From Acidobacteriota bacterium (GTDB lineage Bacteria; Acidobacteriota; Terriglobia; Acidiferrales; UBA7541): a DNA stretch of 38,120 bases. The stretch covers positions 1 through 38,120 of the forward strand of contig QHYZ01000128.1 in assembly GCA_003225295.1 (NCBI GenBank), given 5' to 3'. The notes under the pieces are model-generated. The model searched no databases. It was given only the letters and a program-made list of their open reading frames with translations, and was not told the DNA's origin. A program made the position numbers and the translations under genes. How positions within the stretch are numbered: position 1 is the first letter of the stretch; the number at the start of each line of letters is the position of its first letter. Positions 13,211 through 21,931 of the stretch are shown one piece after another.

Positions 13211-13750
13211 TCAGGAAAGATTCATGGCGCGCCGGAAGGAACCCTTCTCATTGTCGATCTTCTTCTGAAGTTGAAGGATGGCGTAGAGAACGGCCTCGGG
13301 GCGCGGAGGGCAACCGGGGACGTACACATCGACAGGAATGACCTGATTGCAGCCCTGCACAATGGCGTAATTGTTGAAAACGCCGCCGGAAGTGGCACAG
13401 GCGCCCATAGAGATGACCCACTTGGGCTCAGGCATTTGGTCATAGAGCTGGCGGATGACGGGAGCCATCTTTTGCGAGAGACGGCCGGCGACGATCATGA
13501 GATCGGCTTGGCGGGGGGATGGGCGGAAGACTTCGGCGCCGAAACGCGCGAGGTCAAAACGCGCGGCGGCCATGGACATCATCTCGATGGCGCAGCAGGC
13601 CAAGCCAAAACCAAGCGGCCAAATGGAACTCTTGCGCGCCCAGTTCACCGCCTTGTCGAGAGTCGTAAAGATGAGGCCTTCATCTTCCAGCAGATTTCCG
13701 AAATCGTCGGGCTTGGTGAGCGTGACGTGTTTGCCGAGTGAGGTGCTCAT
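13211..13750 (-). CDS. nuoB: NADH-quinone oxidoreductase subunit B (NuoB), isolated copy
   Basis: A 179-residue NuoB homologue, the peripheral-arm subunit of complex I carrying Fe-S cluster N2, which passes electrons to quinone. All four cluster ligands are present: the tandem C52-C53 in [11 protein letters not shown]118 in GACATSGG and C147 in PGCPPRPE. Their spacing (65 and 29 residues) equals that of the E. coli protein. The ATG at 13750 was chosen over one 19 codons earlier because the conserved region begins just after it and the extension lacks family character. No other nuo gene is in the window: neighbours are a monooxygenase upstream and a GH16 gene downstream. It is either a second copy or part of a scattered complex I gene set. 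Confidence 0.93.
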
Positions 13751-13836
13751 AGTGTTCCGCCCTAGGTATTTTCGCACAGGGAGCAGTGGGAGACAAATGG
13801 GATGCACTAAACCGAAGTTCCACGAGGTTTGAGAGA

Positions 13837-15222
13837 CTATTCTGCTGATTTCCGGAGAGATAGCGCAAAATTCACCTGGCGGTTACTGGGAACGTCGACA
13901 AAACTTTGTTGTGTCTCAGGACGAACCTCCATGATCCGCCGCCTGCGGCGATGCATAAGCTTCAAACACTTGATCGTGTAGCGGACCTGGGCTTCGATCA
14001 TGAGGACGACGGAATTGTGGCCCAGCCCGGTGTTGGGACCGAGGAGTATGAAGAAATTGGGGAAGCCGCTGACGGTAACGCCAAGATAGGCGGTCATGCG
14101 CTTCCGCCAGGCGTCGTGAATTTCCACCCCGCCCTTGCCCACCACGCGAACGCCGATGAACGGTTCGGTGGCACGGAAGCCCGTGCCATAAATCAGAACG
14201 TCGACCGGGCGCTCCACTCCATCGTCGGTGACGACGCCGCGTTCGCGGACCTCGGCGATAGCCTCGGGGACAAGTTCGACATTGGTGCGGTTGAGCGTCG
14301 GATAGAAATCATCCGAAACGAGAATGCGCTTGCAGCCCAGTTGATAGTTGGGCGTCAGCGTGGCGCGCAGTTTGGGGTCTTTGATCTTGCGCGCGAGATG
14401 GCGGCGGGCAATGTCCTCGACCTTCTTGCGGAAGGTCTGATTGCCGAGAAAGCCGAGGACGCGAACTTCCTGGCGCCAGAAGATATATTGCCGGAAGGCC
14501 CAGCGCGTGAGTGGGATCGCGCGGAAGCGGCGCTTCCATTTGTCGGTGATGGCAAAATCGAGGCGCGGGACGATCCACGGTGGCGTGCGCTGGAACAGAT
14601 AGAGTCTTCCAACACGCGGCGCGATCTGCGGAACGAACTGGATGGCGCTGGCACCGGTGCCGACAACGGCAACGTTCTTGCCATCCAGGTCGACGCTGTA
14701 ATCCCAGGTCGAGGAATGAAACGCCGGGCCGGAAAAGCGTTCGGCGCCGTGCAGCTCCGGATAGCGCGGGACGTGCAGAGCGCCCATGCCGGACACAAGC
14801 ACGCGGGCGCAAACACGCATTCCGTCGCCTACCGTTGCATTCCAGATTCCTTGGGATTCATCCCAGATGGCTTCGCGAAACCGAGTGTTAAGGCGTAGAT
14901 ATGGCGCAAGCCCGTAACGCCCGACGCAGCCTTGCAGGTAGTCGTGGATTTCCCGCTGACCCGGATACATGCGGGTCCAATCCGCTGATGGAGCGAAGGA
15001 AAACGAATAGAGATGAGAAGGGATATCGCAGGCGCATCCGGGGTAACGATTGTCCCACCAAGTCCCGCCGATGTCCTCGCTCTTTTCGACAATGAGAAAC
15101 GATTTCATGCCGGCTTCGAGTAGCTTGATGCCCATGCAGAGCCCGGAAAACCCGGCGCCCACGATGAGCACCTGAACTTTCGTCAGGGCAGATTCTGGGA
15201 AACTAGCGGCGGCTTCGGTCAT
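13837..15222 (-). CDS. Flavin-containing monooxygenase, Baeyer-Villiger type
   Basis: A 461-residue flavoprotein that uses FAD, NADPH and O2 to insert oxygen next to a carbonyl. It shows the FAD Rossmann motif GAGFSGL (22-28), [11 protein letters not shown] near 52-62, the type I BVMO fingerprint F163-S-G165-PAF-H169-SST-W173-D174, and the NADPH motif GTGASA (188-193). The C-terminal YGTGFRA and [10 protein letters not shown] segments also fit. The ATG at 15222 overlaps the esterase stop as ATGA, which fixes the start and implies translational coupling. The enzyme is slightly short relative to many BVMOs of over 500 residues but matches the compact group. Products would be esters or lactones, and the coupled upstream gene encodes a hydrolase suited to open them. 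Substrate unknown. Confidence 0.9.
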
Positions 15223-16160
15223 GCGCGTGTCATCACTTCCTTGCTCGATTCCCTGGGCCCAACGCAACCGCGGAGAAACGCTGCACTCTCTCGGAGTGAT
15301 TGGCGTGCTTCGGGAATCAAGTGCGGGGCGAGCTGCCAGGCATGCGGTACGACCGGCCAGATTTTCAGTTGGACGGAAACGCCAGCGGCTCGGGCACGAT
15401 CAGCGAGGCGGGTGGAGTCATCGCGCAAAACTTCGTCGTCGCCGACATGGATGAGAAGAGGTGGAAAGCCGGCGAAATCGGCGTAGAGAGGAGACGCGAG
15501 GGGATTGCGGGGATCGGTGTCGCCAAGATAGTAGCTTGCGGATGCCGCGATGTCGGAGCCGCTGAACATGGCGCAGCGATCGGTGTTGGTTCGAATAGAG
15601 TCACCGGTCGCGGCAAGATCGGTCCAGGGAGAAAAGACGGCTGCGGCTGCCGGAAGCGGAAGGCCTGCGGTCCGCAGAGCGAGCAGGAGCGCGAGTGTAA
15701 GACCACCGCCGGCGGACTCCCCCGCAACGACGATGCGCTCCGAAGTGTGGCCCGCGCCGAGAAGCGAACGATAGACCGCTACGGCGTCATCCACAGCGGC
15801 TGGAAATTGATTTTCGGGTGCGAGCCGATAGTCCGGAGCAAACACGCGAAACCCTTGGAGCGCAAAGAAAACAGTGATGGAACGATGCGTCTCCGCCGAG
15901 CAGGCGAAGTATCCTCCCCCGTGAAGATAGAGGAGCACAGTATTGTCAGGCGACGGGCCTTCGAGGCGCTCGCCCGGGACGCCGCCGAGTTGTATGGGAG
16001 AAATATGGACGGCGGACGGAACTTTGTACGGGTCGGGATGAAGGATTCGCCTCGCAACGCGATAATCCCGCACACCTTTCAAGCGGCGTTTTATGCGCCA
16101 CTTAATGATCCACACCGAAAGCCGGGCTTGGAAGCTAGCCGCCATTCCCTGCCGCCACAT
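15219..16160 (-). CDS. Alpha/beta hydrolase, HSL-like carboxylesterase
   Basis: A 313-residue esterase of the hormone-sensitive-lipase group (family IV). The oxyanion motif HGGGYF is at 80-85. The nucleophile elbow GESAGG places Ser149, with Asp242 in GDDEVL and His273 in PHAW completing the triad. No signal peptide is evident, though the first 35 residues are strongly basic and amphipathic (LSVWIIKWRIKRRLKGVRDY), perhaps for membrane association. An alternative ATG lies at 16145. Its TGA overlaps the ATG of the monooxygenase (ATGA), so the two are almost certainly made together. Hydrolysing the ester or lactone made by that monooxygenase is the simplest inferred role. The upstream carboxypeptidase-regulatory-like gene ends 66 bases before. 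Confidence 0.9.
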   Translation of the reverse strand: MWRQGMAASFQARLSVWIIKWRIKRRLKGVRDYRVARRILHPDPYKVPSAVHISPIQLGGVPGERLEGPSPDNTVLLYLHGGGYFACSAETHRSITVFFALQGFRVFAPDYRLAPENQFPAAVDDAVAVYRSLLGAGHTSERIVVAGESAGGGLTLALLLALRTAGLPLPAAAAVFSPWTDLAATGDSIRTNTDRCAMFSGSDIAASASYYLGDTDPRNPLASPLYADFAGFPPLLIHVGDDEVLRDDSTRLADRARAAGVSVQLKIWPVVPHAWQLAPHLIPEARQSLRESAAFLRGCVGPRESSKEVMTRA

Positions 16161-16226
16161 TTGGAGTTTTGGGACGAACAGAGGATATCCGATTCGCGGG
16201 AGGGATGAAAGACGAGGCGCTTCGGG

Positions 16227-17378
16227 TCAAGCTGCAGAGCGTTGCCTTTGACGGGCCCGCGGTGCAACCGTTGGTTCCGCTGAGAGGCTTCGTGCTTTGC
16301 GTCCACGCCAAATCAGCAGCGTGCAGGCGGCAAGGAGGACGGAAGTCACTCCTACCAAGACCAGCGATTGTGAGGTTGGCCGTGCCGGCTGCTTCAAGGG
16401 CGAATCGATCCTGGCCAAAGCAGGCAGAGCGGTGCGAGCGAGCGCGGGTTGCGCTGGATGAAGCGGAAGTAGAGAAGGTGACTGGGTTTTGGCTTGATGT
16501 CCGGGAGGCGGAAGTGCTCCGCTTCCGGAGACTTCAAACTCCGGGCCTTCCCCGGCCTTTACTTGGTTCACTACGTGGACCTGATAGCGGCTGTTGCCAG
16601 TTGCCAGGATCTGGAAGGCTGGTGACGGCGAGGAGAATTTCATGGCCAGCGGAATCATAACCGCCAACTGCTCGAACGGATACGCATGCTTTGTTTGGAA
16701 AGCGACGTGACCGTGGTAGGGCAGGTCGTAGTTGAACGCGAACTTGGTTGCTCCAGGACGCAAGGGGAAATTCACCGCGCAGTGTCCGGGCTGGCCGGGC
16801 ACGGGCGTCACGGAAATCATCATGCCCATGTCTTCCGGACCTGCGGCCATGACAGAATCAATCTTGGCACTCGCCGGCAGATACACTTCAAATGTGTGCT
16901 CACCCACTTGCGTCAGAGGCGGGCTGGAAACGTTCGTGATCTCCACAAGGTCAGAAACGTGAAGCAGGTCTCCATTGGTTCCCGTGCGAAGGATTTCGAT
17001 GCCGCCGGTTATGCCCTGCACCTGTGTGGCCGTGTCGAACACTTCGATGGAACGAGCCTGACCTGCGGAAACCTGCTGATCGTAGCTGACACCCTGGTGA
17101 AACACGCGCACCAGGTGTGGTTTGTCAGGACGTTGCACATTGAGGGTAAACGCCCCCTGTGCATCCGTCCTGGCACGCGCCTCCTCCGACATTCCGTCGC
17201 CCAGCCGAATCAGGATCACCTCATCGCCGGCAGCAGGTTCGCCCCGGCTCTGATTGCGGACCGAGCCAGTGACGTGGTTCGCTCCCGTTGCCCCGGTTGA
17301 AAATAAGACAAGCAGCGCCACGACCGGGAGCATCTTCCGTACACAGGATCGCTTGCCAGGCAGACGAGAGTTGATCAT
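16227..17378 (-). CDS. Secreted, C-terminally anchored protein with carboxypeptidase-regulatory-like domain
   Basis: A 383-residue envelope protein. The signal peptide runs from basic residues through MLPVVALLVLFSTGATGA (about residues 16-33). Next is a carboxypeptidase-regulatory-like/Cna-B-type beta domain (HVTGSVRNQSRGEPAAGDEVILIRL and ARTDAQGAFTLNV). Residues about 130-270 form a second beta-rich domain (LVEITNVSSPPLTQVGEHTFEVYLP). A Pro/Ala-rich linker follows, then one C-terminal membrane helix (SLVLVGVTSVLLAACTLLIW) and a basic tail, giving a periplasmic domain anchored in the inner membrane. The ATG at 17378 overlaps the stop of the TonB-C gene as ATGA, which settles the start. Its function is not known. 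Similar proteins in Acidobacteria accompany cytochrome and TonB genes. Confidence 0.8.
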   Translation of the reverse strand: MINSRLPGKRSCVRKMLPVVALLVLFSTGATGANHVTGSVRNQSRGEPAAGDEVILIRLGDGMSEEARARTDAQGAFTLNVQRPDKPHLVRVFHQGVSYDQQVSAGQARSIEVFDTATQVQGITGGIEILRTGTNGDLLHVSDLVEITNVSSPPLTQVGEHTFEVYLPASAKIDSVMAAGPEDMGMMISVTPVPGQPGHCAVNFPLRPGATKFAFNYDLPYHGHVAFQTKHAYPFEQLAVMIPLAMKFSSPSPAFQILATGNSRYQVHVVNQVKAGEGPEFEVSGSGALPPPGHQAKTQSPSLLPLHPAQPALARTALPALARIDSPLKQPARPTSQSLVLVGVTSVLLAACTLLIWRGRKARSLSAEPTVAPRARQRQRSAA

Positions 17379-18379
17379 TCGTTTACTGCCTCGGCGGAGG
17401 AAGATGTCGGCTGGCGTGGCGCACGTCCGAACATGATGCCCGTTTCGACCTCGACGCGCTTTCCATCGCGCAGGTAGGGTCGGAACCGCCACTGAAATAA
17501 GGAATCCGTAATGGCCTTTGCTTGATCAGGAAAGGCGCTGAGAAAATGAACGTGCTTTACCTTGCCTTCTTTATCGATGATAATCCGCACGGGAACCGGA
17601 TTGAATCGGCGTTCGGCAGTGAGCGGATCAATTCTCTCCAGCACGTTTTCGCCCTGGGCGTAGTCCTTGATACACACCGGGACTTCACCGCCGCCTCGTC
17701 CCGAAATGGGACCGGCCTCAACCGGCAAGGTCATTCTGCCCATTTCCTGGATGAGACTCTCCATCAACTTGGTATCGCGACTGGTGAAGACGAATTGGAC
17801 CATATGGCAGCGGATCTGAGTCGCCAGGGCGTGCCAATGCAATTCGGCGACTGGCGAAACATAGTCCAAGCGGACGAAGGAATGGTTCCCAATCCTGACA
17901 AGCGCCGGCGGCTGTTCCACTTTGTAGTCCGCGTTCAACTTGTCCTTGGTGAAATTCATCAGCTCCAGCGCGTTCCCCGCCGGTGTGAAAAAAAGATCCT
18001 GGGCGGTGATCAAAATAATGCCTCGGCTCGTCCCCTTGAATGTGTCTGCGGGCCGGATCTGTGCGAGTACGTAGTAACCGTTGTCCGAAGGAGGCGGACC
18101 GGTGTACCTCTCGGTCCAATCTGGCGAGAGAGTGTAGGTGAGACCAAAATACTGGTTGAGAAAGACTTTGTTGGCCACTCTCCCGCCTTCGGGGACAGGA
18201 GTCTCCGAATCGCTGGCACTCGACCAAGCGCCCTTAACCAGGATGGTCTCTGACGGCAGCTTATGGGCCTCCGGATTGTTGGCAAAGTCTCCCCCACTCT
18301 GAGGAGTGCCCTGCGCGCGGGCAAGCAGCGATACCGATAAACCAAGAAGCACAAAGCAACGCGATAATGTTGTCTGCAT
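17375..18379 (-). CDS. Secreted protein with TonB C-terminal-like domain
   Basis: A 334-residue protein with a signal peptide (CFVLLGLSVSLLARAQ, cleavage near residue 23). The middle region (about 70-210, LNQYFGLTYTLSPDWTERY and SRGIILITAQDLFF) is an unrecognised periplasmic domain. Residues about 265-315 match the TonB C-terminal fold: PVPVRIIIDKEGKVKHVHFL, ITDSLFQWRFRPYLRDGKRVE. It lacks the N-terminal membrane anchor and long Pro-rich spacer of a true TonB, so it is unlikely to transduce energy; such orphan TonB-C domains probably bind proteins or peptidoglycan. It is coupled by ATGA overlap to the next gene and lies 83 bases after the DUF1111 cytochrome gene, which suggests an envelope-linked operon. 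Confidence 0.8.
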   Translation of the reverse strand: MQTTLSRCFVLLGLSVSLLARAQGTPQSGGDFANNPEAHKLPSETILVKGAWSSASDSETPVPEGGRVANKVFLNQYFGLTYTLSPDWTERYTGPPPSDNGYYVLAQIRPADTFKGTSRGIILITAQDLFFTPAGNALELMNFTKDKLNADYKVEQPPALVRIGNHSFVRLDYVSPVAELHWHALATQIRCHMVQFVFTSRDTKLMESLIQEMGRMTLPVEAGPISGRGGGEVPVCIKDYAQGENVLERIDPLTAERRFNPVPVRIIIDKEGKVKHVHFLSAFPDQAKAITDSLFQWRFRPYLRDGKRVEVETGIMFGRAPRQPTSSSAEAVNE

Positions 18380-18462
18380 ATTCAGAGCCCCGTTGTTTCA
18401 AAAATAGAAAAAATCGGGCGAGGCACTCTCGTGACTCGCCCGGGAGAAACCGTGACAAAGGA

Positions 18463-19884
18463 TTACAGCGAGCGCAGGAAGTTCAGGATGTCCTGTTGCT
18501 GGCTGGGTGTCAGGTTTTGGTCGAAGATCGCCTCCACAGTGCTGGCTTCGCCGCCGTTGCTATCGTGTGCCTCGATAGCGCAGAGCAGGTTGCTGCAACG
18601 GCCGTCGTGCAGGAAGAAGATGCGCTGTCCCAGCCCCCACAGAGGAGCCGTACGAAATTGATCTCCACCGGCGCCGCCTTGGGAGACGTTGTCCACCAAC
18701 GTTGCCCCCATGTGGTGGATCTCGATATCGGAGAACAAGTTGGCAGTAGCGTTGCCCAAACCAGCCGTCAACTTGGACGGCTGGGTGGTGAGCGACGGCG
18801 TATGGCAGACCGCGCAGCCCACGGCGCTAAAAAGCCTGCGACCATTAGCGATCGAGGTTGCTCCACCTGGCGAGGTAGTAGAGGGTGTGGGTTGATCCAG
18901 GAACTGCATGAAGACATTGAACAGCGCCGTGTCACTGGTGACAGTGGAGGCGCTGGTGCCATCGGAGTGGGTAGTGTCCTCAGGGTAGCCGATCCCTGCG
19001 AGGTTCAGGCAGTTGGCCGGAAGTCCGCTTCCCAATTGGTCCTCACCCGGCAGCGGCCGATCTTGCGTAAACAGTTCGTTGGAGATGCCCATTTCCACGT
19101 TGTAGGCCTCACCGGCGAAGATCATCAGCGACTTGTTCTGCGCCTTCCAGCCAAAACGGCTAATGGTGCCATCGCTACCGTTGTGATTGAAGGTGCCGCC
19201 GATGCCGAGACCATTGTTTGCCTGGGCCGCGTGATTGGCCAGCAGAGTTGAGTCGTCAATGTTTGCCATTAGTCCCGTGCCAAACGTCGGTGTGGGAATG
19301 CGGAAGATGATGTTGTTTACCGCCCTCGCAGCATTAAAGCTGGGCTGTGGCAGGTTGCAGGCCCCCGCATCAGCGCGGCCGGTAACGGTGAACAGGTCTT
19401 CCACTCCGCCGTTGGGCGCGTTGGTATTGGCCGTGCCGTTGGCGTTAAAAAAGAATGGGAACCGGGCTTCGCGCACCGGACCGTTGGCCACGACGAAAAA
19501 TGGGATGGTGTTGGTGCTGCCATTCACGACCCCGTTGGCGATCACCTGGCTTTGGGGGTTGGGCCCGACATTCGGGAAGACACCGGAGGCCGGGCTGGTT
19601 CCGCCCGCTGCCGGTTGCGAATGACACGCCCCGCACGAGTCCAGGTTGAACCGTGGTCCCAGACCGGGGTTGTCTCCGGTAACCGTCTGGTGCTCGTTGA
19701 ACTGCCCGAGTCCGGTTTGGAAGAAGGCCAAGTCGTTTGCATTGGCGCTGACGGAAGCAAACGGCTGGCCCGCGTTCACTCCCGTGTTGCTGCGTACTCC
19801 TGGATCGGTTTGAGCAAACGCCATTGCCGGAAAGAACAACGCCACCAACAATGCGTAAACCGAAGCGAACTTCATTGTTTTCAT
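18463..19884 (-). CDS. DUF1111 di-heme c-type cytochrome (thiol oxidoreductase-like)
   Basis: A 473-residue periplasmic di-heme protein of the DUF1111 family (COG3488), related to MauG/cytochrome c peroxidases. The ATG at 19884 has GGAG seven bases upstream and begins a signal peptide (FASVYALLVALFFPAMAFAQ). Two c-type haem motifs are present: CGACH in LDSCGACHSQPAAGG and CAVCH in GCAVCHTPSLTTQ. The C-terminal signature LWGLGQRIFFLHDGR followed by AIEAH is diagnostic of the family. The ending ILNFLRSL is typical. A likely role is electron transfer or oxidative chemistry on a periplasmic substrate; this family is poorly characterised. It lies 192 bases downstream of the AraC-type regulator and starts the likely cytochrome/TonB-C/regulatory-domain gene cluster. 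Confidence 0.88.
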   Translation of the reverse strand: MKTMKFASVYALLVALFFPAMAFAQTDPGVRSNTGVNAGQPFASVSANANDLAFFQTGLGQFNEHQTVTGDNPGLGPRFNLDSCGACHSQPAAGGTSPASGVFPNVGPNPQSQVIANGVVNGSTNTIPFFVVANGPVREARFPFFFNANGTANTNAPNGGVEDLFTVTGRADAGACNLPQPSFNAARAVNNIIFRIPTPTFGTGLMANIDDSTLLANHAAQANNGLGIGGTFNHNGSDGTISRFGWKAQNKSLMIFAGEAYNVEMGISNELFTQDRPLPGEDQLGSGLPANCLNLAGIGYPEDTTHSDGTSASTVTSDTALFNVFMQFLDQPTPSTTSPGGATSIANGRRLFSAVGCAVCHTPSLTTQPSKLTAGLGNATANLFSDIEIHHMGATLVDNVSQGGAGGDQFRTAPLWGLGQRIFFLHDGRCSNLLCAIEAHDSNGGEASTVEAIFDQNLTPSQQQDILNFLRSL

Positions 19885-20076
19885 TCCTGGTCTCCTTCGA
19901 TTGGGAAGCCCACCGTGCCCTCCCGTTTGGAACACTTCCAAACAGCTGTTCTGACTATTGGGCAATCTCGCCCCCCACGCGAGTCATCATTCGTTAGAAC
20001 CTAGCTGTGTGAGTTTCTTTTACTACTCGCCGCTTGGCGACCACAAGAAGAAGTGATTAGCATGACCCGTCTTTCG

Positions 20077-20520
20077 TTAGCATTTTGTGTAGTTGCCTTG
20101 TTTCCGGTAGCGGGCCGGAGCCTGTGTAAAGCGTCGTTCAAATGCTCGGATGAAGCTGGAAGCATGCCCATATCCCACGTTGTGGGCAATTTCTTTCACG
20201 CTCAGGTAGCTGTTCTCGAGAAGATGCGCTGCTCTCCGAAGTCTTTGTTCGTTTAACCACTCGCCCATGCAAACGCCGGTCTGGTGCTTGAACAATCGTT
20301 GGAGATACGAAGGGCTCAGGTGGAATTCGAGGGCCAGATCACGTATGGTGAACGTCCCGGAATCAGCCATCCGAAGAATCTTCTGCACGCGCCGTTCGAG
20401 TACCGTGGGCGTCGATGGACGAGATAGGGCGACCGCGGCAGGCGGCATGCCTCCGTCGGGAATTGTGGCGTTTGTGCCATTTGTTCCTACAAAGCTGTCA
20501 CGAGAATCCAAAGAGCGCAC
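20077..20520 (-). CDS. AraC-family transcriptional regulator, DNA-binding domain only
   Basis: A 147-residue regulator starting at GTG 20520, with AGGAGG five bases upstream that fixes the start. Residues about 45-145 form the double helix-turn-helix of AraC/XylS proteins: FTIRDLALEFHLSPSYLQRLFK is the first motif, and SVKEIAHNVGYGHASSFIRAFERRF with APARYR is the second, highly conserved one. The N-terminal 40 residues are low-complexity (TNGTNATIPDGGMPPAA), with no room for an effector-binding or dimerisation domain. It resembles stand-alone members such as SoxS or MarA that are controlled by abundance. It sits just upstream of the DUF1111 gene on the same strand, so that cluster is the obvious candidate target, by inference. 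Confidence 0.9.
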   Translation of the reverse strand: MRSLDSRDSFVGTNGTNATIPDGGMPPAAVALSRPSTPTVLERRVQKILRMADSGTFTIRDLALEFHLSPSYLQRLFKHQTGVCMGEWLNEQRLRRAAHLLENSYLSVKEIAHNVGYGHASSFIRAFERRFTQAPARYRKQGNYTKC

Positions 20521-20902
20521 AGATACCTCCTGTAGGGATCATTATTGGCTTGAACGCGTCTGAGGGAACCGCAAGTTAACGACAGGTCCCTTGGTCACGT
20601 ATCGAAGGCCTTCCCTTTTCACAACTTATCGGACGCGATTCTGAGCGCCGGGAGAAACCAGGGTTGGGTGAAATTGGACCCGGGGAAAATCGCGAGGAAA
20701 TTATTCGACTCAGCAAACCATGTCAATGGTACTTCTGTTAACTACCCGATTATTGGCCATCGGTACAGGGAAGACCAGGCCTGGTGCATTCGAAGCATCT
20801 TCAGTGTGACATCAGTGGCGAATGCCAGCCCAGCACCTCAGGGCGGAGTAAGCGAGCCTAAACGGTCAAAAAGAGTGTGTGCAATTCGGGACCTAGCTCA
20901 CA
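20521..20902. other. Gap upstream of the AraC-type regulator
   Basis: No credible gene is seen in 382 bases. It must contain the regulator's promoter, but I see no clear -35/-10 pair. A perfect 12-bp palindrome ACCAGGCCTGGT lies at 20774-20785 and could be an operator or part of a terminator for the dehydrogenase gene ending at 20903. Confidence 0.45.
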
Positions 20903-21931
20903 TCAGACCGCCAGGACGACTTTGCCGAACTGCGAGCTGGATTCGAGATAGGCATGGGCTTGGGCGCAAGCGGCCAGGGGGAAGATGCGGTCGACAACGG
21001 GCTTGAAGCGTCCGGAGGCCACCAGGCGCATGACCCTGTGGAGCTCTGATTTGGTGCCCATGTAGGACCCGAGTAGCGAAAGCTGTCGACTGAAGAGGAA
21101 TCTCAGATCGACCTTGGCATCGTAGCCTGTGGTGGCGCCGCAGGTTACCAGGCGACCGCCGGGGGCGAGACTTGCGAAGCTGTCGTCCCAGGTGGCCGTC
21201 CCGACGTGTTCGAATACGACATCCACGCCGCGCTTACCCGTGATGCGGCGGACTTCATCGCGGATTTTCTGGTTCTTGTGATTGATGAGATGGTCGGCGC
21301 CGAGTTGTTTTGCCTTTCGCAGTTTTTCATCGGTGCCGGCAGTGGCTATCACGCGGGCGTCAAAAAACCTGGCAATCTGAATGGCGGCGCTCCCGACGCC
21401 GCTTCCTGCCCCAAGGATGAGAACATCCTCGCCGGGCTGCAACTCGGCTCGGACAAGAAGCATATGCCAGGCGGTTTGGAAGACAAGCGGAATCGAGGCG
21501 GCTTCTTCAAAGGTCAGCTTTTCCGGATACGGCATGCAATTTACTTCGGGAGCGCGCAGAAGCTCGGCGCAGCCGCCGTCGATGAGGTAACCAAGATTGG
21601 TGAAGTGGCGGCAGCGGTTATCCTGGCCGGAGACGCAGGCCGCGCATTTGCCGCAGGTCACGCCTGGGGCGAGGACCACTTTCTGGCCAACGCGCACGGT
21701 AGTGACATCCGCTCCGATCTGGGCGATTTCACCGGCAACGTCACTGCCGGGAATGTGTGGTAGAGGGATCGGCACATTGGGATTGCCGATGCGGACCCAC
21801 AGGTCAAGGTGGTTCAGCGCGCAAGCTCTCACGCGAACGAGGACCTCGTTCGGGCGGATCGCCGGGTCGGGAGCGTCCGTGTATTTCAGGACCTCAGGTC
21901 CGCCGTGCTGATGGAAAACAATGGCTTTCAT
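20903..21931 (-). CDS. Zinc-type alcohol dehydrogenase / MDR family oxidoreductase
   Basis: A 342-residue medium-chain dehydrogenase/reductase. The GroES-like catalytic domain has ALNHLDLWVRIG and GSDVAGEIAQIGADV. The structural zinc lobe carries four Cys (C95-G-K-C-AAC and C at about 109 in QDNRC). The NAD(P)-binding motif GAGSGVGSAAIQIA (about 175-188) is intact. The usual first catalytic-zinc Cys is replaced (ACALNHLDLW, with Asn-His in the place of Cys-x-Ser/Thr), a pattern shared with many MDR enzymes annotated as quinone oxidoreductase or zinc-binding dehydrogenase, so substrate prediction is unsafe. A run of G lies before the ATG at 21931. It is divergent from xdhC, and the two share a 149-base control region. 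Confidence 0.9.
   Translation of the reverse strand: MKAIVFHQHGGPEVLKYTDAPDPAIRPNEVLVRVRACALNHLDLWVRIGNPNVPIPLPHIPGSDVAGEIAQIGADVTTVRVGQKVVLAPGVTCGKCAACVSGQDNRCRHFTNLGYLIDGGCAELLRAPEVNCMPYPEKLTFEEAASIPLVFQTAWHMLLVRAELQPGEDVLILGAGSGVGSAAIQIARFFDARVIATAGTDEKLRKAKQLGADHLINHKNQKIRDEVRRITGKRGVDVVFEHVGTATWDDSFASLAPGGRLVTCGATTGYDAKVDLRFLFSRQLSLLGSYMGTKSELHRVMRLVASGRFKPVVDRIFPLAACAQAHAYLESSSQFGKVVLAV

Follow-up and report, generated by a model that had tools for sequence, protein, structure and literature searches.

A Baeyer-Villiger monooxygenase-esterase gene pair inherited in class Acidobacteriae and very probably broken in one genome by a transposon-borne deletion

Background

Does an esterase gene that overlaps the gene of a type I Baeyer-Villiger monooxygenase (BVMO) form with it a working two-step pathway in an acidobacterial genome? 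We studied such a pair in a stretch of 38,120 nucleotides from an Acidobacteriota bacterium (contig QHYZ01000128.1), hereafter the window. The preliminary description of this DNA held that the monooxygenase makes an ester and that the esterase opens it. A survey of 2015 reported no BVMO from Acidobacteria (PMC4498894), so that the conserved BVMO-esterase module described below is placed in a phylum without a BVMO in that survey. Our search of the literature on the BVMO control loop and on BVMO-esterase gene pairs found no paper on this acidobacterial pair.

Results and discussion

The gene pair

Both genes lie on the minus strand, arranged as follows:

15219..16160, minus strand: HSL-family (family IV, GESAG) esterase, 313 aa in an open frame, with the triad, HGGG and PF07859
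15219..15222, minus strand: ATGA stop-start overlap of 4 nt, from esterase to monooxygenase
13837..15222, minus strand: monooxygenase ORF as read, 461 aa
13897..15222, minus strand: coding part of the type I BVMO, 442 codons, from its motifs and the alignment to relatives

The ATGA overlap reported to join an HSL-type esterase to the monooxygenase was seen at 15219-15222, and a motif check located the triad Ser149, Asp242 and His273 at the positions claimed, together with HGGG at 80 and GESAGG at 147. The esterase matched PF07859 in Pfam (E 9.6e-52), and two HSL family IV esterases of known structure, Est8 (6y9k) and EstD11 (7at3), resembled it over the catalytic domain (phmmer E 3e-71 and 2e-69). 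Its best NCBIfam family was GESAG_HSLs (242.8 bits, E 4e-72), below the 430-bit cut-off; by sequence, the protein belongs to the same superfamily, beneath the cut-off of that curated subfamily.

The monooxygenase presented both Rossmann motifs (GAGFSG at 22 and GTGASA at 188) and both BVMO fingerprints, [A/G]GxWxxxx[F/Y]P[G/M]xxxD at G52-D66 and FxGxxxHxxxW[P/D] at F163-D174. The catalytic Arg and Asp (R337 and D66 in PAMO numbering) corresponded to R299 and D66, which are the same in all 17 aligned sequences. Its match to the FMO-like family PF00743 had an E value of 8.7e-14 in Pfam, and that to BVMO structures 2e-67 (phmmer against PDB sequences). The fingerprint is thus complete in every named motif, as the preliminary description stated, but the monooxygenase itself is not whole, lacking its C-terminal ~55 residues (see below). 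A search of the window's own genome for the FMO-like family gave this protein as the single match. A scan for promoters returned 1 site where 2.9 were expected, and one for terminators 11 where 8.9 were expected.

Inheritance of the pair

The BVMO was found at E 1e-120 or better in 22 of 399 genomes drawn from the larger number in class Acidobacteriae; with G008, included although its broken copy misses this limit, the set comprised 23 genomes. The esterase gene was directly upstream of the BVMO gene in 20 of them (16 of the window's genus and four of another family). The expectation that the pair would be conserved in related genomes held for these 20 and failed for the other three (G023, G052 and G053), where the esterase was not adjacent and no orthologue was found in the genome; note that the contig of G053 has only ~470 nt upstream of the BVMO. 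Nineteen members of the genus had no BVMO orthologue, and in the 10 of these that were searched no esterase orthologue was found. Three of the 10 (G021, G024 and G030) do contain a distant relative of the BVMO, with 28-30% identity.

The two genes remained adjacent and co-directional, with an exact ATGA at 8 of the 19 junctions read. At the others the genes overlapped by up to 59 nt or stood up to 4 nt apart, except for 194 nt in G009, where the esterase frame is broken. Some start codons were set by rule in this reading; the loop pattern missed G182, whose block was seen as locus L117.

Among the best 80 named loci, all three acidobacterial ones (L113, L114 and L117) have the esterase; by their length, their contigs are those of G009, G378 and G182, so that they are not independent of the 23 genomes. 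The other 77 showed no like esterase upstream in the flank available, which extended to at most 6 kb and was short or absent in a few loci, and two of them had a distant esterase downstream. The frequent neighbour clusters in the 80 loci, named via Pfam from one representative each, were an SDR (42), a PF10118 protein (22) and other alpha/beta hydrolases (14 and 9).

Judged from these sequences, the conserved BVMO and esterase are a real pair, have been inherited together and represent a known kind of module. Two known systems can be likened to it by description. AcmA/AcmB of Gordonia sp. TY-5, an acetone monooxygenase and an esterase in a bicistronic operon (PMC6215540), is likewise a two-gene operon of a type I BVMO and an esterase that takes a ketone through an ester to acid and alcohol, and differs in that the window BVMO is truncated. 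In the mymA locus of M. tuberculosis (PMC10272862), the monooxygenase MymA (Rv3083) adjoins the probable esterase LipR (Rv3084), but there the two belong to a longer locus (Rv3083-Rv3089) that is linked to the cell envelope. By analogy with AcmA/AcmB and with a proteomic study of subterminal alkane oxidation (PMC6304351), an intact acidobacterial module would convert a ketone to an ester and cleave this to acid and alcohol.

The missing C-terminus of the BVMO

The window BVMO has 461 aa, against 485-513 aa for the 20 class orthologues with an unbroken frame, a comparison that leaves out G003 with its broken frame. It matched its relatives up to residue 442, beyond which all 16 aligned full-length relatives from its family run ~55 residues further. 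In all 16 this extension contains a block resembling VWQSGGCxSWYQDxxTGxxTTLWPGSVxxY that is missing entirely from the window, and 20 columns of the lost segment are invariant among them. The block was also present in every one of 34 wider relatives, which represent several phyla by their record titles (a subset of the best 80 named loci of a longer list), with W458, G462, C463, S465, W466, Y467, G473, W479 and P480 invariant.

In a profile of the relatives, the lost part aligned to the C-terminal part of the Acinetobacter cyclohexanone monooxygenase (CHMO), and its GGCxSWY block lined up with the BVMO control-loop region. The Trp of that loop (W492 in CHMO) sits in a mobile loop that partly covers the substrate entry channel, according to a paper on a fungal BVMO (PMC4966971). 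This C-terminal segment is conserved in the subfamily and is not a formal fingerprint; because it is absent from the window copy, we filed that copy as a truncated descendant and not as a working member.

A plain frameshift at the end of the gene was ruled out, as the lost block is coded in no frame of the downstream DNA. When the lost 55 residues, taken from G003, were searched against the window assembly, the best E value was 0.8, nothing beyond chance, whereas the same query matched fully in G003. An enzyme can, then, be broken although its motifs are complete: the fingerprints by which BVMOs are recognised fall in the first half of the protein, and motif-based annotation would therefore pass the truncated copy.

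A transposon remnant at the end of the gene

The sequence that replaces the lost segment comprises two features:

13837..13896, minus strand: last 19 codons and stop of the BVMO frame, foreign to it and supplied by a transposon end
13806..13896, minus strand: right end of an IS1634-type element, 91 bp, with same-genome copies in contigs C142, C34 and C108

Compared with G003, 95% identical in DNA over the compared stretch, the window has ~90 bp of unrelated sequence where G003 has ~185 bp. The 91-bp stretch recurs in three contigs of the same genome (C142 at 100%, C34 at 100% over 90 bp, C108 at 99%), each time inside the first 310 bp of the contig, and in none of five relatives searched; all three contigs start inside the element. 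In C142 and C108 it is preceded by a shared coding sequence for a transposase-like C-terminus, whose product is 33-40% identical to plasmid-encoded proteins, five of six annotated as IS1634 family transposase. The 80-aa piece of this C-terminus had no Pfam match. A search with the 22-base element end found it four times, every time as the known right end; no left end was found, nor any clear target duplication at the window site when compared with G003.

The interval between the MDR gene and nuoB

The pair and a second group of genes lie between two boundary genes:

13214..13750, minus strand: nuoB, the neighbour conserved on the downstream side (13211-13807 as mechanical ORF; translation likely begins with the ATG at 13750)
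16227..20520, minus strand: second cargo block between the MDR gene and the pair (CarboxypepD_reg-like protein, 334-aa protein, di-haem oxidoreductase and AraC-type regulator)
20903..21931, minus strand: gene of a medium-chain dehydrogenase/reductase (MDR), which bounds the variable site upstream and adjoins the pair in several relatives

This interval (13750-20903 in the window) is variable in the genus, being empty or holding the BVMO-esterase pair, the di-haem block, or both. It is nearly empty in G026, G027, G028, G029 and G011, with about 70-115 bp between matches; in G030 and G021 it measures 0.8-0.9 kb and lacks the pair. The pair occupies it in 14 genomes, with both flanks seen in 10 and one flank in G006, G008, G013 and G015. 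The four-gene minus-strand block at 16227-20520 is common to G003, G017 and G023 and partly to G018; it lies in the interval of G017, G023 and, as far as its contig reaches, G018. Pair and di-haem block stand there together in the window and G003, and G023 has a BVMO alone, outside the interval.

The MDR gene occurs in 30 of 36 genomes of the genus and is thus not tied to the pair; since it also occurs without the pair, we did not adopt it as the maker or preparer of the ketone. Its usual catalytic-zinc ligands seem to be missing and it keeps a four-Cys stretch resembling a structural-zinc site, so that it may be an enone or quinone reductase.

Independent lesions and selection

In a tree of MDR proteins, the window, G003, G017 and G018 formed one clade (support 100/98). 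The tree used 26 of 31 matches, leaving out a second G007 copy and four partial genes; its labels give G018 as di-haem block, though its contig stops partway through it. G005, G031 and G035 are labelled as empty, though in none of them was the MDR gene observed adjacent to nuoB. A separate 32-bp deletion in the middle of the BVMO gene breaks the frame in G003, the nearest relative, and the next nearest by this tree, G017 (74% complete) and G018, had no BVMO match. In G008 (L050) the two genes are still in place but degraded, and the esterase frame is interrupted in G009 and G013, where a sequencing error is possible. Altogether a broken gene was present at 5 of the 16 pair loci of the genus, and the repeated lesions offer a small test case for the loss of accessory catabolism in soil bacteria.

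Between the window and G003, dN/dS was 0.19 and 0.06 for two parts of the BVMO (33 and 13 changes) and 0.26 for the esterase (41 changes), with 0.08 for the flanking MDR gene and 0.10 for nuoB. At a similar distance, G019 against G001 gave 0.12 for both BVMO and esterase, and the BVMO and esterase comparisons other than window-G003 gave 0.05-0.14. The window-G003 values are well under 1, so that any decay would be recent or weak, but they come from few changes; dN/dS was dropped as proof of decay.

Predicted structures

The two nucleotide domains of the window BVMO were modelled with confidence (mean pLDDT 85.6). The tail of this protein reached a pLDDT of only ~58, and the block 391-400 stood at 64, against 77-88 in the matching blocks of the model of intact L113. 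The latter, full-length model (mean pLDDT 88.1) aligned to the phenylacetone and cyclohexanone monooxygenase structures (1w4x, 5m0z and 6er9) over ~473 residues with Z 37-40 and 31-32% identity. The acidobacterial BVMOs share fold and catalytic residues with these enzymes and are shorter (~500 aa), and the window copy is in addition without the C-terminal control-loop part. For the window model the aligned span extended up to residue 461; this was discounted as a sign of an intact end, the low-confidence tail having perhaps been superposed on the C-terminal helix.

How the pair may have been broken

The explanation that we favour, with a probability of about 80%, is that a module taking a ketone through an ester to acid and alcohol, intact in relatives, has very probably been broken recently in the window genome by a transposon-borne deletion. 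In the ancestral module of class Acidobacteriae, a type I BVMO would oxygenate a ketone to an ester, which a co-translated HSL esterase would then hydrolyse. An IS1634-type element would have inserted shortly past the BVMO stop codon; a later deletion would have taken most of the element together with the last ~55 BVMO codons, leaving 91 bp of the element as the new 3' end. With the control-loop block missing, the truncated protein should not run the normal coupled Baeyer-Villiger reaction; the esterase, still open, may act alone. The proposal that the BVMO makes an ester which the esterase opens thus agrees with the anatomy of the pair, its inheritance (20/23) and the known bicistronic pairs, but, given the lost residues, a working coupled pathway in the window genome is not supported.

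We consider it quite unlikely that the pair works here all the same, the truncated BVMO still folding and oxidising a ketone and the esterase opening the product. The frame is open for 461 codons and keeps the catalytic R299 and D66, both nucleotide domains are modelled with confidence, and dN/dS is below 1. Moreover, EthA, MymA and Rv0565c are active BVMOs without the loop Trp (PMC9044951), which means that this Trp is not universal and that its loss alone is not fatal. The window copy, however, has lost the whole ~55-residue segment with its 20 invariant columns, its tail and block 391-400 are modelled with low confidence, and its nearest relatives have a broken gene or no gene.

The truncation might instead lie in the assembly. 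In that case the genome itself would have a complete IS copy or an undamaged BVMO, and the BVMO would have been misjoined to a repeat during assembly. The 91 bp are indeed a multi-copy repeat of the kind where contigs of this draft assembly break, as C142, C108 and C34 do; yet both flanks are the right neighbours in the same order as in G003, the join lies 91 bp inside the element and not at its far end, few bases are shared at the join, and the missing segment turned up nowhere else in the assembly, all of which makes such an artefact very improbable. Side reactions of N- and S-oxygenation are known for the BVMO family, and the protein could be a class B monooxygenase with such a reaction beside an unrelated esterase. 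That reading would suit the finding that, outside Acidobacteria, none of the 77 named loci (of the best 80 listed) had a like esterase upstream in the available flank. We regard it as unlikely, as both BVMO fingerprints are present and the frequent neighbours outside Acidobacteria, SDRs and alpha/beta hydrolases of another family, fit ketone and ester chemistry. Under the favoured reading of a recently broken module, the copies to express are full-length relatives, e.g., L037 of G020 or L117.

An unlikely but broader possibility is that the MDR-nuoB interval is a standing exchange site in this genus, where redox modules (the BVMO with its esterase, or the di-haem oxidoreductase block with its AraC-type regulator) are swapped and lost within a possible transcription unit feeding complex I, and that the IS-tailed BVMO has an altered activity, for example as an NADPH oxidase. 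As a separate observation, the window genome (G000) measures 8.13 Mb; the other genomes of the genus range from 3.3 to 6.8 Mb, except for one of 8.8 Mb.
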